Assembly (NCBI GenBank): GCA_029884335.1
Contig: JAOUIA010000045.1
Coordinates: 1-32,340 of the forward strand
DNA from: Betaproteobacteria bacterium
GTDB taxonomy: Bacteria; Pseudomonadota; Gammaproteobacteria; Burkholderiales; Casimicrobiaceae
Length of the DNA: 32,340 nt
Reading direction: 5' to 3'
Below, piece after piece: positions 2,876-32,340 of the stretch (position 1 is its first letter; each line of letters begins with the position of its first letter). The notes under the pieces were generated by a model. The model saw only the letters and a list, made by a program, of their open reading frames with translations. It was not told the origin of the DNA and did no database searches. The position numbers and the translations under genes are program-made.

Positions 2876-2905
2876 GTGACGCCCGGGATCGCGATACCGT
2901 ATATT
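2876..2905 (+). promoter_or_regulatory. Candidate dnaE2 promoter inside the operator
   Basis: GTGACG (2876-2881) and TATATT (2900-2905), separated by 18 bp, resemble sigma-70 -35 and -10 elements. The -10 lies within the LexA-like palindrome, so repressor binding would block it. Transcription would start near 2912, only about two bases before ATG 2914, and no Shine-Dalgarno sequence is visible, so the transcript could be leaderless. The -35 match is weak. Confidence 0.35.
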
Positions 2906-2915
2906 TGTACGGTAT
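2894..2915 (+). promoter_or_regulatory. LexA-like palindrome overlapping the dnaE2 start
   Basis: The 22-bp sequence has perfect 8-bp arms, ATACCGTA-N6-TACGGTAT. Its core CCGTATATTTGTACGG has the layout of the proteobacterial SOS box CTGT-N8-ACAG, with C/G in place of T/A at the second position of each arm. dnaE2 is typically SOS-controlled, so a LexA operator is the natural reading. The right arm ends in the A and T of the ATG at 2914. Binding by LexA itself is inferred. Confidence 0.65.
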
Positions 2916-5900
2916 GCCGCCGGACCTCCTCCCGCCCTACGCCGAGCTGCACGCGCTGACGAACTTCTCGTTCCTGCGCGGCGCCTCGCATCCCGAAGAG
3001 ATGGTCGAGCGCGCGCACGCGCTGGGCTATGCGGCGCTCGCCATCACCGACGAGTGCTCGCTCGCCGGCAGCGTGCGCGCGCACCTCGCCGCGAAGGACC
3101 TCGGCATCAAGCTGATCGTCGGCAGCGAGTTCGCGCTCGACGACGGCGTCAGGCTCGTGCTGCTCGCGACCGACCGCGCGAGCTACGGCGACCTGTGCCA
3201 GCTGATCACGCGCGGCCGGCGCTCCGCGACCAAGGGCACGTACCAGTTGACGCGGGCCGACGTCGCCGAACTCGCGTCCAATTGCCTCGCCCTCCTCCCC
3301 GGAAAAGTAGGGTCAGACTCGACTTTCGCAAAGGCAGGGTCAGACTCGACTTTCGCCGACCGGAAAGTCGAGTCTGACCCTACTTTTCCGGCCGATGCGG
3401 CCCGCTGGGTGCGGGCGACGTTCGGCGAGCGCGCGTGGCTCGCCGTCGAGCTCTTCGCCGGCAGCGGCGACGCGGCGCGTCTCGCGCGCCTGCAGGCGCT
3501 GGGTCGCGCGAGCGGGCTGCCGCTGGTCGCGGCCGGCGACGCTCACATGCACGTGCGCGCGCGCCGCGCGCTGCAGGACACGCTGACCGCGGTCCGCCTC
3601 GGCCGGCCGGTCGCTGAGTGCGGCTACGCGCTCTTTCCCAACGGCGAGCGGCACCTGCGCTCCCGCGGGCGGCTCGCGACGATCTACCCGCGCGAGCTGC
3701 TGGCAGCGACGGTCGACGTCGCCTCGCGCTGCGCGTTCTCGCTCGACGAGCTGCGCTACGAGTACCCGCGCGAGATCGTCCCCGAGAACGAGACGCCGGC
3801 CTCGTGGCTGCGCAAGCTGACCGAGCAGGGGCTCGCGCGGCGCTACGGGGGCCCCTCACCCCAACCCTCTCCCCGCTCGCGCGGGGAGAGGGAGCACATC
3901 CGCGGCGACGCGCACTCTCCCTCTCCATGCTCGCGCGGGGATAGGGAGCACATCCGTGGCGACGCGCGCTCCCCCTCTCCATGCTCGCGCGGGGAGAGGG
4001 AGCACGCCGATTCGCCGTCGGGCTCCCCTCTCCCGCCGTCAGGTGGGAGAGGGGCCGGGGGTGAGGGTCACGTCCTGCGCGGAGACGCCACGTTCCGCTG
4101 CACCGCCGCCCCGCCCGACGTGCGCGAACTGATCGAGCACGAGCTGGCACTGATCGCCGAGCTCCGCTACGAGGCGTACTTCCTCACCGTCCACGACATC
4201 GTCGCGTTCGCGCGCTCGCAGGGCATCCTCTGCCAGGGCCGCGGCTCGGCGGCGAACTCGGCGGTCTGCTACGCGCTCGGCATCACCGAGGTCGACCCGG
4301 CGCGCATGTCGATGCTGTTCGAGCGCTTCATCAGCAAGGAGCGCAACGAGCCGCCCGACATCGACGTCGACTTCGAGCACCAGCGGCGCGAGGAGGTGAT
4401 GCAGTACGTCTACGGCAAGTACGGGCGCGACCGCGCCGCGCTCGCGGCCACGCTGATCACCTACCGCCCGAAGAGCGCGGTGCGCGACGTCGGCAAGGCG
4501 CTCGGCCTCGACACGGCGCAGGTCGACCGGCTCGCCGGCGTGTTCGCCTGGTGGGACGGGCGCGTCGTACAGGCCGAGCGCCTGCGCGAGGCAGGCTTCG
4601 ACCCCGACAGCCCGGTGATCCGGCGGCTCGCCAAGCTCACCGGCGCGCTGATGGGCTTCCCGCGCCACCTCTCGCAGCACGTCGGCGGCTTCGTCATCGC
4701 GCGCGACCTGCTCGAGCGCATGGTGCCGGTCGAGAACGCCGCGATGGCCGACCGCACCGTGATCCAGTGGGACAAGGACGACCTCGACGCGATGGGCCTG
4801 CTCAAGGTCGACTGCCTCGCGCTCGGCATGCTCTCGGCGATCCGGCGCGCGCTCGACTTGGTCTCGAAGAAACCGGCTGCGGCGAAAGTAGGGTCAGACT
4901 CGACTTTTCATGGTCGGGATGCGGGGCCGCCTGATCCGTGGGAAAAGTCGAGTCTGACCCTGCTTTCGATGCAGGACATCCCGCCCGAGGACCCGGAGGT
5001 CTACCGGATGATCCAGCGCGCCGACACGGTCGGCGTGTTCCAGATCGAGTCGCGCGCGCAGATGTCGATGCTGCCGCGCCTGCGGCCGGCGAACTTCTAC
5101 GACCTGGTCATCGAGGTCGCCATCGTGCGCCCCGGGCCGATCCAGGGCGGCATGGTGCACCCGTACCTGCGCCGCCGGCAGGGGCTGGAGCCGGTGACGT
5201 ACCCGTCGCCTGCCGTGCGCGCGGTGCTCGAGCGCACGCTCGGCGTGCCGATCTTCCAGGAGCAGGTGATGCAGCTCGCCATCGTCGCCGCGGGCTTCAC
5301 GGCCGGCGAGGCGGACCACCTGCGGCGCTCGATGGCGGCGTGGCGGCGCAAGGGGGGGCTCGAGAAGTTCGAGGAGCGGCTCGTCGCCGGCATGGCGCAA
5401 CGTGGCTACCACGAGCAGTTCGCGCGGCAGATCTACCAGCAGATCCTCGGCTTTGGCGAGTACGGCTTCCCCGAGTCGCACTCGGCCTCGTTCGCGCTGC
5501 TGGTGTACGTGTCGTGCTGGCTCAAGCGCTACCACCCGGCGGCGTTCACCGCCGCGCTGCTCAACTCGCAGCCGATGGGCTTCTACGCGCCCGCGCAGCT
5601 CGTCGCCGACGCGCGACGGCACGGTGTGCCGGTGCGCAACGTCGATGCCATGGTGAGCGAATGGGACTGCGTGCTGGAACCCGATGACGAAAGACGCTGG
5701 GTCCCCGCCTTCGCGGGGACGACGACATCCCAACTTCGTCGTCCCCGCGAAGGCGGGGACCCAGCGTCTTCTCCTTGTGCCGACGACACCCCCGAGCGCT
5801 GGGGCGCACACGGCCCCGCGCTGCGCCTCGGCCTGCGGATGATCGCCGGGCTGACGGAGGCCGGCGCGCAGCGCCTAGTCACCGCCCGCGCGGCGCGTCC

Positions 5901-6519
5901 GTTCGCAAGCGTGGCCGACCTCGCGCACCGCGCGCACCTCGACAAGCGCGATCTCGCCGCGCTCGCCGACGCGGGCGCGCTCGCCGCGCTCGCCGGCCAC
6001 CGCCACGGCGCCGTGTGGGAGGTCGCCGGCGTGGAGCGCCTGCCCGCGCTGATCGCCGGCAGCGAGTTCGCCGAGGAGGCGCCGCAATTGCCGGCGCCCA
6101 CGGAAGGCGAGGACGTCGTCGCCGACTACCGCCGGCTCGGCCTCACGCTAGGCCGCCATCCGCTCGCACTGCTGCGCGAGGAGCTCGCAAGGCGAAGGCT
6201 CGTCACGTCCGGGCAGGTGCGTTCGATGCCGCACGGACGCCTCGCCCGCACCGCCGGCATCGTCATCGGCCGGCAGCGGCCCGACACGTCGAGCGGCGTC
6301 GTGTTCGTCACGCTGGAGGACGAGAGCGGCACGACGAACGTGATCGTCTGGCGCGACCTCTCCGACCGCCAGCGCCGCGAGCTGCTCGGATCGCGCCTGC
6401 TCGCGGTCTACGGCAAGGTCGAGCGCCAGGGCGAGGTCGTGCACCTGATCGCCGGCCGGCTCGTCGACTTGACCCCGCTACTCGGGCAGCTGCAGACGCG
6501 GTCGCGGGACTTCCACTGA
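2914..6519 (+). CDS. dnaE2: Error-prone DNA polymerase DnaE2 (ImuC)
   Basis: A C-family DNA polymerase III alpha-like enzyme that performs translesion synthesis, normally with ImuA and ImuB; neither is beside it here. An N-terminal PHP domain starts with [18 protein letters not shown]. The polymerase core has PDIDVDFEH (D482, D484, D486) and the third acidic residue in [10 protein letters not shown] (D633). A helix-hairpin-helix region and an OB fold ([20 protein letters not shown]) close the protein. It has 1201 residues against roughly 1030-1070 for the family. The surplus of about 160 residues is four repeat-derived, in-frame insertions at nucleotides 3299-3391, 3849-4077, 4883-4968 and 5691-5770, each between conserved blocks. 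ATG 2914 is preferred over TTG 2905 because the family begins only a few residues before PYAELH. All catalytic motifs are intact, so it is probably functional. Confidence 0.93.
3299..3391. repeat. In-frame palindromic repeat insertion 1 in dnaE2
   Basis: Perfect 29-bp inverted arms at 3299-3327 and 3363-3391 carry the core GTAGGGTCAGACTCGAC. A second direct copy with one change (GCA for GTA) lies between them at about 3331-3355. The length is a multiple of three and contains no stop in the dnaE2 frame. It encodes [15 protein letters not shown] and KVESDPTF within the PHP region, between LALLPG and ADAARW. Confidence 0.9.
3849..4077. repeat. In-frame repeat insertion 2 in dnaE2, 54-bp tandem copies
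   Basis: The segment begins and ends with C-rich/G-rich repeats of the type CCCCAACCCTCTCCCC and GGGGGTGAGGG. Between them a 54-bp unit is repeated with onsets at 3876, 3930 and 3984, the third copy being partial. The unit encodes 18 residues ([18 protein letters not shown] and a near-copy). It separates the PHP domain from the [20 protein letters not shown] block that starts the polymerase core. No stop or frameshift is introduced. Confidence 0.9.
4883..4968. repeat. In-frame palindromic repeat insertion 3 in dnaE2
   Basis: Inverted arms at 4883-4909 and 4942-4968, 27 bp with one mismatch, belong to the same family as insertion 1 (core GGGTCAGACTCGAC). About 32 bp of unrelated sequence separates them. 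It encodes KVGSDSTF on entry and EKSSLTLLS on exit, just before the conserved block [20 protein letters not shown]. Confidence 0.88.
5691..5770. repeat. In-frame palindromic repeat insertion 4 in dnaE2
   Basis: A perfect inverted repeat with 34-bp arms (5691-5724 and 5737-5770) and a 12-bp loop. Each arm contains a smaller palindrome around CCCCGCCTTCGCGGGG. It encodes [20 protein letters not shown] plus GGDPAS, the peptide signature of a repeat that is widespread between proteobacterial genes. The same family occurs at 9494-9569 and in the tandem array at the right edge. Confidence 0.92.
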
Positions 6520-9465: not shown

Positions 9466-9493
9466 CCGGATTCACGCAACTGCACGACCTTGT

Positions 9494-9569
9494 GCCGTCG
9501 CTCCCGCGAAGGCGGGAGCCCAGCGTCGTTTGTTCGACACTGGGTCCCCGCCTGCGCGGGGACGACGAC
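9494..9569. repeat. Palindromic repeat after the Bug gene
   Basis: An imperfect inverted repeat of the same family as dnaE2 insertion 4: CGCTCCCGCGAAGGCGGGAG pairs with TCCCCGCCTGCGCGGGGA through flanking CCAGCGT/ACACTGGG. It lies about 30 bp after the Bug stop and could act as a transcription end or barrier between the convergent genes, though no U-tract follows. Confidence 0.75.
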
Positions 9570-9619
9570 AGTGGGTTGCTTGCAGCCATCAGCGACTCGT
9601 ACCCGCCTCCGTAGCCCTA

Positions 9620-9711
9620 CCCCGCTCCCCCTTCCCTCTCCCGGCTGACGCCGCGCGAGGGGAGTTCTCCTCACCCCTGACCCCTCTCCCGGCTGGCGCC
9701 GGGCGAGGGAA
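9620..9711. repeat. Paired C-rich repeats at the M81 gene 3' end
   Basis: Two direct copies of a CCTCTCCCGGCTGRCGCCG.GCGAGGG unit at about 9634-9665 and 9681-9710. The right copy is inside the M81 coding sequence and provides its last residues and stop codon. Confidence 0.75.
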
Positions 9712-11161
9712 GTACTTGTACGTTGCGGAACGGGAGCGAGCGCAGGTCCGCGCTGGCCGGTCCCGGACAGTCAACGTCGAAGATCCGCGCGCACAGCGGC
9801 TCGAACGCCGCGCGGAAGTGGTTCTTCGCCTTGGCGCACAGGAGCCGCGTCGCCGCGAGATCGACGCCGTGCGCCGCGAAGAACGCGGGGTCGTTCGCCG
9901 CGCCCACGCGCGACGTGACGATCACCTGCACGCCGTCCACGTCCAGCACCGCGCTGTTGCCCAGGTCGACGGCAAGCCCGCGCTCCATCGGCCCTTCGTT
10001 GACGAAGCGGGCGCGGCACAGCCGCGCGACCCGGGCGCTCGCCGCGACGCCGCTGCCGAACGCCGCGCTGCGCTTGCCGCCCAGCACGACCGCAAGCTTC
10101 GCGCCTTCGCCCGCGGCACGCGCCTGCGCGACGACCGCCTCGTCCGCGAAGTACGCGAACACGGTCGGCGCGCCAGGGCGCACGGCCAACAATGCGCGCA
10201 GCAGCCCCGGCGTGTCCGCCGCGCCGCCGGAGAGCGGGTTGTCGGCGGGATCGGTGACGGCGACCAGCCCCGGCGGCGCGGACAACGCGAGCCGGATGCC
10301 CTCCTCCGCCGCGACGAGCCGTGGCGTGAACTCGTCCGCGCGTGCGCGAAGCATCGTCGCGATCGCCGCCGCGGCTTCGGCAGCAATCGCCGCATCGCCG
10401 TCGGCGACGGCGAGCACCGAGGCCCCGGTCGACGGCGTGTCCGCGTAAGGGAAGCCGCCGAACACGGCGACGTCGAGCACGGAGCCTCGTTCGAGCTTTC
10501 GCGCGGCGGCCTCGGCGTCCGCCATCGGCCCCGCCGAGGTGCGCATGTTGAAGCTGGGCAGGAGCAGGCGCAGCGGGTGCACGACGACCCGCGGCCTGGT
10601 TTCGCCGGCTACCGCGCGCACCAGCTGGTCGAGCACGCGCGCGGCGGTCGCCTTCATGTCGACGTGCGGATAGGTGCGATACGAGGAAGCCGCTGCGAGG
10701 TGTGTGGCGATCGCCGGATCGAGGTTCGCGTGCAGGTCGAAGCTCGCACCCACCGGGCAGCGCGCCGCCGCCGCCGCGGCCCGCACCAGGGCGAGGTCCG
10801 GCGCCGCCTCGCCGCGCGCGATCGCGGCGCCGTGCAGCGAGAGATACACCGCGTCCCAGCGCTGCCCTGTGAGGCCCGCCAGGATCTCGTCGCGGATCGC
10901 GGCATACGCGTCGTCGTCGATCGGCCCGCCGGGATTCGCCGAGCAGCAGCGCAGCACGGTGACTTCCCACTTCGGATGCGCGTCGGCAAACTCTGCGACC
11001 GCGGCCAGCTCCGACTCCGTGCCGCGCGCGGCGCCGAGCGCGGCGCGCCCGCTCGTCCACTCGCGCTCGCGAAACGACGCGAGCGTGGTCTGCAGCGGGC
11101 TGAACGCGTTGCCCTCGAACCAGAAGCGCGCGACCGCGAGGCGCTTCCTCGCCGTGATCAC
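9671..11161 (-). CDS. M81-family metallopeptidase, MlrC-like
   Basis: A 496-residue protein of the M81 family, named after MlrC, which cleaves linear microcystin fragments; most members have unknown substrates. Features include an N-terminal ARFWFEGNAFSP block, ANPGGPIDDDAY, YLSLHGA (H110), FDLHANLDP (D142, H144) and YPHVDM (H166), which supply the expected metal ligands, and a later VAVTDPADNPLSGGAADTPG segment. GTG 11161 overlaps the flavoprotein stop as GTGA. The last dozen residues (LPSPGASRERGQG) are encoded by a palindromic repeat that also supplies the TGA, so the native C-terminus has been replaced. In this operon it may hydrolyse an amide made by the amidohydrolase; that is inference. 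Confidence 0.88.
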   Translation of the reverse strand: MITARKRLAVARFWFEGNAFSPLQTTLASFREREWTSGRAALGAARGTESELAAVAEFADAHPKWEVTVLRCCSANPGGPIDDDAYAAIRDEILAGLTGQRWDAVYLSLHGAAIARGEAAPDLALVRAAAAAARCPVGASFDLHANLDPAIATHLAAASSYRTYPHVDMKATAARVLDQLVRAVAGETRPRVVVHPLRLLLPSFNMRTSAGPMADAEAAARKLERGSVLDVAVFGGFPYADTPSTGASVLAVADGDAAIAAEAAAAIATMLRARADEFTPRLVAAEEGIRLALSAPPGLVAVTDPADNPLSGGAADTPGLLRALLAVRPGAPTVFAYFADEAVVAQARAAGEGAKLAVVLGGKRSAAFGSGVAASARVARLCRARFVNEGPMERGLAVDLGNSAVLDVDGVQVIVTSRVGAANDPAFFAAHGVDLAATRLLCAKAKNHFRAAFEPLCARIFDVDCPGPASADLRSLPFRNVQVLPSPGASRERGQG

Positions 11162-25940: not shown

Positions 25941-26809
25941 CGCGGCCCTCGCACCCGGCCGCACTCCCCGCTGCGCGGGGCGAGGGGAGCAGCGGCTCAG
26001 CCCCGGCTCCCCTGCGCGCCGTGCTTCGCGAGAGGAGACGCTGCTCCCCTCTCCCGCCGCCAGGTGGGAGAGGGGTTGGGGGTGAGGGGCGTCGCCTGTG
26101 CGTTGCGCTGCTCGGCATCGCGGCGCTGTGGGCAAGCGCCGCCGGCGCCCAGGTCGCGATCGCGCCGTTCTCCACAGCGGCCGCCGGCAACGCGCCCCCG
26201 GCGGGATGGTCGGAACTCGCGTTCCCGAAGATCGAGAGGCGCACGCGCTACGAACTCGTCGTCGACGACGGGGCCACGGTCGTTGCTGCCACCGCGGACG
26301 CCTCTGCGTCCGGCCTGATCCGCCGGCTCGACGTGCCGGCCGCAAGCGCGCGCGTGCTGCGCTGGCGCTGGAAGGCGATCGAGCTGCCCGCGGGTTCCGA
26401 CACGCGCGTGAAGGCCGGCGACGACGCCGCCGCCCGCATCTACGTCACGTTCCGCTACGAGTCCGAGCGATTGCCGTGGCTGTTCCGGGTGATCTACGAG
26501 GCCGTGCGGGCGTTGTACGGCGAGTTGCCGCCGCACGCCGCGCTCATGTACGTCTGGGACGCGCGCGCGCCCTCCGGCGCGAGCTTCCCCAACCCCTACA
26601 CCGAACGCGTGCGCACCGTCGTCGTCGAGAGCGGCGCAACGCGCCTGAACCAGTGGCTCGCCTACGAGCGCGACGTGCTGGCCGACTACCGGGCGGCGTT
26701 CGGCGAGGAGCCGCCGCCGATCTCCGGCGTCGCGATCATGACCGACGCCGACAACACCCGCGGCCGCGCCATCGCGCGCTACGGCGACGTCACGCTGTCG
26801 CCGCGCTGA
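25937..26809 (+). CDS. DUF3047 exported protein with repeat-derived N-terminus
   Basis: A 290-codon gene. From about residue 56 it encodes a signal-like hydrophobic stretch (VALLGIAALWASAAGAQ) and then a DUF3047 domain (LRWRWKAIELP, DDAAARIYVTFRYE, LMYVWDARAPSGASFPNPYT, DNTRGRAIARYGDV). The function of DUF3047 is unknown; its location is presumably periplasmic. GTG 25937 overlaps the glycosyltransferase stop as GTGA. Between this start and the hydrophobic stretch lie about 50 residues encoded mostly by palindromic repeats (25961-26090), displacing the signal sequence from the N-terminus. No in-frame ATG or GTG appears between the repeat and the signal. Either the long extension is tolerated or a weak CTG near 26097 is used. 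It ends 3 bp from the convergent XdhC gene. Confidence 0.78.
   Translation: MTRPSHPAALPAARGEGSSGSAPAPLRAVLRERRRCSPLPPPGGRGVGGEGRRLCVALLGIAALWASAAGAQVAIAPFSTAAAGNAPPAGWSELAFPKIERRTRYELVVDDGATVVAATADASASGLIRRLDVPAASARVLRWRWKAIELPAGSDTRVKAGDDAAARIYVTFRYESERLPWLFRVIYEAVRALYGELPPHAALMYVWDARAPSGASFPNPYTERVRTVVVESGATRLNQWLAYERDVLADYRAAFGEEPPPISGVAIMTDADNTRGRAIARYGDVTLSPR
25961..26090. repeat. Palindromic repeats at the DUF3047 gene 5' end
   Basis: Two C-rich/G-rich repeat units in opposite orientation: GCACTCCCCGCTGCGCGGGG onward at the left, and CTCCCCTCTCCCGCCGCC running into GGGAGAGGGGTTGGGGGTGA at the right. GGGAGCAGC near 25986 pairs with GCTGCTCCC near 26040. The right unit matches the end of dnaE2 insertion 2. 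The stretch is open in the DUF3047 frame. Confidence 0.82.
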
Positions 26810-32198: not shown

Positions 32199-32340
32199 GG
32201 CGGCAGGCTCCGCGGGGATGACGGAACGACGCTGGATCCCTGCCTGCGCGGGGATGACGCAACGACACTGGATCCCCGCCTGCGCGGGGATGACGCAACG
32301 ACACTGGATCCCCGCCTGCGCGGGGATGACGCAACGACAC
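32199..32340. repeat. 36-bp tandem repeat array at the right edge
   Basis: Three full copies of a 36-bp unit begin at 32232, 32268 and 32304, preceded by a degenerate partial copy. Each unit contains CCCCGCCTGCGCGGGG followed by ATGACGCAACGACA. The last two copies are identical. The array probably continues outside the window. It belongs to the repeat family of dnaE2 insertion 4 and lies upstream of the kinase gene, so any promoter for that gene lies between 32139 and 32198 or beyond the array. Confidence 0.88.

Follow-up and report, generated by a model that had tools for sequence, protein, structure and literature searches.

In this study we describe dnaE2, which encodes an error-prone member of the DnaE family of DNA polymerases, in a stretch of 32,340 nucleotides from a Casimicrobiaceae genome (Betaproteobacteria bacterium, GenBank assembly GCA_029884335.1, contig JAOUIA010000045.1, positions 1 to 32,340; hereafter the window). 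The gene carries four in-frame palindromic blocks made of three families of repeats. The same four sites hold repeats in other species of the genus, the repeats differ between species, and many of them match the repeats that flank a transposase gene resident in the same genome. We consider it likely that miniature elements of the RAYT/TIR type (RAYT, REP-associated tyrosine transposase; TIR, terminal inverted repeat), together with repetitive extragenic palindromes (REPs), have repeatedly inserted and been turned over at four permissive loops of DnaE2. A sequence-only reading had already proposed four in-frame palindromic insertions of at least three repeat types in this gene, and genome-wide repeat searches as well as folding z-scores confirm this. 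The features are collected in Table 1.

Table 1. The dnaE2 gene of the window, its repeat blocks and its start site (block boundaries are approximate; aa, amino acids)
Feature	Position	Strand	Basis and remarks
dnaE2, DnaE-family error-prone DNA polymerase, 1201 aa	2914..6519	+	NCBIfam PRK05672, Pfam domains, structural matches to Pol III alpha
Block B1, site S1 (~aa 129-159)	3300..3390		family F1, one long hairpin; three arms at 3309-3325 (+), 3336-3352 (+) and 3365-3381 (-)
Block B2, site S2 (~aa 313-386)	3850..4071		cluster of family F2 hairpins
Block B3, site S3 (~aa 657-685)	4884..4967		family F1, two inverted arms at 4890-4906 (+) and 4945-4961 (-)
Block B4, site S4 (~aa 925-953)	5687..5772		family F3, 35-nt arms at 5691-5725 and 5736-5770
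Palindrome-like site TACCGTATATTTGTACGGTA (also written TACCGTATATTNGTACGGTA)	2895..2914	+	overlaps the dnaE2 start codon

The reading frame of dnaE2 is open throughout. Its product scores 1489.9 bits against the NCBIfam model PRK05672 (cut-off 939), and the polymerase motifs are intact, with PDIDVDF present and LLKVDCLAL aligning with LVKFDFLGL of a Pol III alpha chain. Score and motifs place the protein in the DnaE2 family, and a separate DnaE1 is encoded elsewhere in the window's own genome (G000:C19; G000 denotes this genome and G003 its sister and nearest relative). The protein exceeds the model, which has a length of 1047, by about 154 aa, close to the roughly 160 excess codons claimed from the sequence alone, and the excess is held in the four blocks, all of them in frame and free of stops. 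The DnaE2 core is under purifying selection: the ratio of non-synonymous to synonymous substitution rates (dN/dS) is 0.22, at a dS of 0.38, between G000 and G003, it ranges from 0.18 to 0.31 across six DnaE2 pairs, and it is lower for DnaE2 than for DnaE1 in five of the six. Together with the matches of relatives, inside which we found no stops, these ratios speak against a decaying pseudogene.

The arms of family F1 (AGGGTCAGACTCGACTT) make up blocks B1 and B3, family F2 (CTCTCCCC..GGGGAGAGGG) makes up B2, and family F3 (GGTCCCCGCC..GGCGGGGACC) makes up B4, the two arms of which are fully complementary. RNA folding gave -66 kcal/mol for B1 (z -10.6), -60 for B3 (z -9.8) and -82 for B4 (z -15.8), and z-scores of -3.4 to -3.9 for three pieces of B2, a block that our insert script did not flag as a whole and that was called by eye. 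With at most one mismatch, the genome yields 67 matches to F1 in forward and 66 in reverse orientation, the reversed control none; with at most three mismatches, F3 has 135 and 126 matches on the two strands, again with none for the control. The blocks are thus repeat insertions from three families, far beyond chance, and the repeat searches support the earlier suggestion that several unrelated families have entered one gene. F1 copies are dispersed, with at least two arms in 40 of 42 clusters among the matches listed, as is expected of miniature elements of the RAYT/TIR (TIRYT) type, which F1 fits. GTAG is present as well, but a single arm forms no clear hairpin by eye. CGTC-tagged REPs have been described as a CGTC tag, a stem of 8-9 bp starting with AT, a loop of 4-5 nt and a CCA tail (PMC3733652, in the parts available to us). 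B4, judged by eye, has the layout CGTC-GTCCCCGC-GAAG-GCGGGGAC-CCA, with a stem that starts with GT in the dnaE2 copy and with AT in other copies of the genome, and F3 would accordingly fit that description. More F2 and F3 repeats lie in the window at 9493-9712 and 26043-26102, and a tandem array of F3 units with a 36-base period occupies 32208-32340 and continues to the contig end.

A protein search of 22 genomes of the genus, among them that of the window, recovered dnaE2 from every one, in pieces for some; these genomes are mostly split into many contigs. We aligned 20 dnaE2 stretches from 19 genomes and read the partial ends of G005 and G021 separately. In the window protein the inserts follow residues 127 (S1), 311 (S2), 649 (S3) and 919 (S4), approximately, and the repeat inserts of relatives lie at S1 to S4 too, with repeats that differ between species. 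At least one dnaE2 repeat insert is present in 15 of the 22 genomes; none is seen in G005, G009, G011, G012, G017, G018 and G021, where G005 and G021 are visible at S4 only. Among the genomes in the tree, S1 is filled in 5 of 17 scorable cases, S2 in 6 of 17, S3 in 4 of 17 and S4 in 11 of 19, and G016, outside the tree, is filled at S4. These 27 filled sites comprise 18 called by script and nine called by eye (S1 of G001 and G010, S2 of G000, and S4 of G003, G004, G006, G008, G013 and G015); S4 of G012, with 35 aa and only a short palindrome, was scored empty, the contig of G010 ends within the repeat at S1, and all calls were fixed before the transposase search. The script had found 29 DnaE2 insert blocks of at least 10 aa in 19 sequences, two of them upstream of the start codon, and 18 were palindromic beyond all 60 shuffles. 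The segments show no conservation at residue level among relatives, which speaks against a domain insertion as their origin. In G007, DnaE2 contains two palindromic inserts and in addition an insert of 424 aa that has intein splicing and LAGLIDADG domains and immediately precedes the conserved SHSASF motif.

The sisters G000 and G003 both carry repeats at S2, S3 and S4, and the repeat differs at each site: F2 versus F1 at S2, F1 versus a GGGGTCAGAGCC-type repeat at S3, and F3 versus an F1-like repeat at S4. On the DnaE1 tree, at least five occupancy changes are needed for S1, three for S2, two for S3 and six for S4. Arms flagged by the script differ by at most two mismatches; set against a dS of 0.38 between G000 and G003, the inserts look younger than the split of the two sisters, or else recombination keeps the arms alike. 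The sites themselves appear to be loops that accept insertions, as the sequence-only reading had suggested. They vary between relatives in the alignment, and in a structure model built from the first 1190 residues of the window protein and 43 named relatives (mean predicted local distance difference test score, pLDDT, of 81; best structural matches to Pol III alpha) pLDDT falls below 50 at residues 134-154, 315-391, 655-680, 740-746 and 927-964, four of which overlap inserts.

A link to a mobile system comes from the resident transposases. In the window's own genome we found one gene with PF01797, a single-tyrosine HUH-type transposase, which is flanked on both sides by inverted F1 arms, with an inverted 27-nt word spanning the gene, the arrangement of a TIRYT element. 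Across the genus, PF01797 genes occur in ten of the 22 genomes, at 14 loci. The flanks of nine loci share 20-24 nt with the dnaE2 inserts of their own genome (G000, G002 at one of two loci, G003 at both, G004, G006 at one of two, G007, and G015 at both). Where both loci of a genome match, they match different sites: in G003 one matches S2 and S4 and the other S3, in G015 one matches S4 and the other S2. The G001 locus shares 16 nt with its own dnaE2, its row maximum, and the G020 locus 14 nt. Matches between flanks and the dnaE2 of other species are mostly 11-16 nt long, with 18-19 nt in a few pairs and a single case of 21 nt, between a G004 flank and the dnaE2 of G002; this last match falls at codon 98 of the open frame, away from the inserts, and seems coincidental. 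At ten of 14 loci no dnaE2 in the row scores higher than that of the same genome, ties included, and the own sum of 259 was reached by none of 20,000 permutations (best 248), compared with 6254 of 20,000 for the dnaE1 control. The flanks of the second G002 transposase, which show no match to the dnaE2 of G002, share 16 nt with that of G020 and resemble by eye the GTGGGTC..GGCTTCAGCC repeat at S4 of G020. The suggestion that repeats are copied in during error-prone synthesis finds no support, because it explains neither the hits on the polymerase's own gene nor the match to the transposase.

The sequence-only reading had also called for a search for these repeats in other genes. We carried it out in three genomes, counting a cluster as intragenic when the coding frame lies on both sides of it. 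For F1 we covered 100 of 133 places, all exact, and fetched 40 of the 41 listed clusters outside dnaE2; for F3 we covered 100 of 261 places and fetched 40 stretches; for G002 we fetched 20 stretches, with three listed places excluded. Among the matches listed, three of 42 F1 clusters in the window's own genome are intragenic (dnaE2 accounts for two and a UbiH/UbiF-type hydroxylase for the third), as are two of 41 F3 clusters (dnaE2 and the fused mutase IcmF). Three F2 patterns in the fetched DNA gave six, two and one clusters, and the single coding one, in dnaE2, was among the six of the first pattern. In G002 one of 23 clusters is intragenic, again in dnaE2, and in G001 one of 18, between the two domains of a VIT/VWA gene, with a further variant-arm cluster in dnaE2. 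Pooled over the three genomes, nine of 131 listed clusters are intragenic, six in dnaE2 and three elsewhere, a tally that is no unbiased sample because dnaE2 was deliberately included in every set. Coding hits outside dnaE2 are rare. Many copies adjoin gene ends, and the repeat's own TAG serves as the stop codon in 18 of 50 genes that enter F1 clusters among the matches listed.

Counted by arms, 30 of 647 lie in dnaE2 where 0.53 would be expected by length, a count that is biased because most patterns were drawn from dnaE2 inserts; the comparison of transposase flanks is free of this bias. The concentration varies with the word. In G003 (genome 85% complete) all three exact copies of one F1 word are in dnaE2, and for another word three of six copies in G019 and two of eight in G006. 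For more abundant repeats the share is smaller (G000 5/107, G002 4/50, G007 4/60, G015 2/69, G004 2/76).

We propose that mobile palindromes of a non-autonomous kind gave rise to the blocks by landing in four DnaE2 loops, F1 as a RAYT/TIR-type miniature element and F2 and F3 as REP-type hairpins. The transposase would move such repeats as single-stranded copies, and a copy arriving in a gene would survive only if it were in frame, free of stops and placed in a flexible loop. A filled loop might then go on gaining, swapping or losing repeats. It might further be possible that a polymerase that is needed only occasionally and whose loops are tolerant passes this survival filter best, so that dnaE2 becomes over-represented, and single-strand exposure of dnaE2 during the damage response could perhaps help. 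RAYT-driven movement of REP-like repeats has so far mostly been deduced indirectly.

Several observations weigh against this proposal. Transposition itself was never observed. Three of the 14 transposase loci have no match in their own dnaE2 (the second loci of G002 and G006, and G008, dnaE2 being incomplete in G006 and G008), and the matches of G020 and G001 are no longer than the dnaE1 background of 11-16 nt. Whether a genome has a transposase is only a loose guide to whether its dnaE2 has an insert: ten of ten genomes with a transposase and five of 12 without one carry an insert (Fisher p 0.005, by-eye calls included), p becomes 0.033 without G005 and G021, which are visible at S4 only, and script-called inserts alone show no association (6/9 versus 5/10, p 0.65). 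Neither F2 nor F3 could be tied to a transposase, with no search made in the surroundings of F3 copies. The copies in dnaE2 are not clearly the closest to the copy flanking the transposase, with ranks, ties included, of 8 and 29 of 42 in G000, 8 of 21 in G002 and 4 of 20 in G001; the idea that they are special partners of the transposase copy is not borne out by these ranks. The low pLDDT at the inserts is to be expected, because the aligned relatives lack those stretches. Moreover, tolerance alone leaves the outgroups unexplained: in 79 of 80 named DnaE2 genes from outgroups, the remaining one having yielded no frame, we found 22 inserts of at least 12 aa, none of them palindromic by the shuffle test. 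The insert habit may hence be peculiar to this lineage or to the transposase types found in it. The DnaE2 of Thiobacillus sp. RI_561 has an S4 insert of 89 aa that looks F2-like by eye; it did not exceed the shuffles.

A more far-reaching possibility, which we put forward tentatively, is that dnaE2 is the preferred docking gene of the RAYT/TIR systems of the genus. Most established transposase families would then have placed a copy in one of the four loops, by targeting during the damage response or by selection for a tuned polymerase, and repeats and the host mutation rate may be coupled. Taken on its own, such targeting seems rather doubtful to us. The transposase would encounter dnaE2 at a higher frequency than other genes, for instance through single-strand exposure of a damage-induced gene or through a fit to the loop sequences, and this agrees with the recurrent hits (five changes for five filled species at S1) and with the match of dnaE2 inserts to the genome's own transposase. 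The palindrome-like site at the dnaE2 start, a candidate, would fit inducible control: we take its layout to be like that of a LexA-type box, it has an exact or near match in most relatives, its exact matches in 16 of 315 fetched loci are every one at a dnaE2 locus, and the window holds no second copy when three mismatches are allowed. UvrA belongs to the damage response in many bacteria, yet it is free of such inserts in its complete copies. All 16 full-length UvrA matches span 2760-2799 nt (a second, UvrA-like copy of G007 excluded) and all 13 full-length CarB matches 3132-3162 nt, spans that leave no room for an insert; fragments, including the window genome's own UvrA, which is split over two contigs, were not judged. 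In addition, most classified copies lie outside genes, and no target motif was found, though none was tested for.

Alternatively, the hairpins could be kept for an effect on DnaE2, either as a brake on translation of the mRNA or as loops with an influence on contacts or on fidelity, so that insertion here would be favoured by selection. The mRNA hairpins are strong, the same loops are hit recurrently, and UvrA and CarB are spared in their complete copies, as is DnaE1, in which the same insert detection gave no insert of at least 10 aa in 20 sequences, three of them partial (the palindrome threshold differed from that for DnaE2, which is immaterial at zero inserts). A changed activity was also speculated on by the authors of the 2013 study (PMC3733652). 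We nevertheless find such tuning unlikely, since seven of 22 genomes do without an insert, two of them seen at S4 only, and sister species have neither the inserted peptides nor the sizes and sites of the hairpins in common. About equally improbable is a single ancient insertion at each site that the whole genus inherited and in which recombination later homogenised the repeats. S3 would suit it, being filled in one part of the tree only, where G003 and G020 have a related repeat, but the changes at S1, as many as the filled species, the different repeats of G000 and G003 at S2, S3 and S4 and the short loops at the same positions in several species argue against it. That DnaE2 simply grew by a domain or by low-complexity sequence, or that the gene is decaying, is hardly credible, for although S2 and S4 vary in length in the outgroups as well and G004 and G015 have a non-palindromic insert after residue 61, the window inserts belong to families with many non-coding copies, lack residue conservation and sit in a gene with a dN/dS of 0.22.

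Related observations have been made before. In the parts of the 2013 study available to us (PMC3733652), palindromic REPs were found in frame inside DnaE2, uvrA, uvrB, recBCD and polA-type genes, DnaE2 and repair genes being sometimes the sole REP-tagged genes of a species, and the authors speculated that this was not fortuitous; the preference for dnaE2 is itself thus partly published. Like our repeats, most of those REP copies are intergenic near gene ends, and GTAG repeats provide TAG stops. The REPs of one gene category sat at different sites there, recB of two Xanthomonas excepted, whereas in our case a single gene has four sites that the genus refills again and again, with three families in the window gene, paralogue controls and a match to the transposase. 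According to the same source, RAYT-like genes are surrounded by TIR repeats that have the motif GGGGWSAS. The arms of our relatives contain GGGGTCAG, which fits this motif, while the window F1 deviates at the first base; here, too, the arms are found as dimers and stand in inverted orientation on either side of the transposase, and the text available does not single out TIR repeats inside dnaE2. With REPIN/RAYT systems (PMC3116915) our elements share a pair of inverted arms separated by a spacer, a number of transposase genes that is one or two in each genome, and a repeat type that co-varies with the transposase; they differ in that F1 arms are no clear hairpins alone and in the insertion into a coding gene. 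The parallel to Rickettsia palindromic elements drawn in the sequence-only reading stands for the behaviour, in-frame palindromes in proteins that are likely functional (compared on this level only, as cited in PMC3733652); as a label it does not, given that F1 fits RAYT/TIR and F3 a CGTC-tagged REP. Those elements occur in many genes, whereas in our genomes most of the coding hits observed fall to a single gene and one of the families has a link to a transposase. Our searches of the open-licence literature brought up neither fixed dnaE2 sites that are refilled from species to species nor inserts that match a resident transposase. The new part is the fixed sites, their turnover and their matching to the resident transposase.

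In conclusion, filled and empty versions of four sites in one orthologous gene, with many of the filling repeats matching a resident transposase, amount to a natural experiment on the movement of repeats. The system informs on which targets survive and on how proteins absorb repeats, and the gene serves as a natural record of repeat entry. The suspicion raised in 2013, that hits on repair genes are not due to chance, can now be tested in a setting where DnaE1 and complete UvrA copies are spared and a mutagenic polymerase is hit repeatedly.

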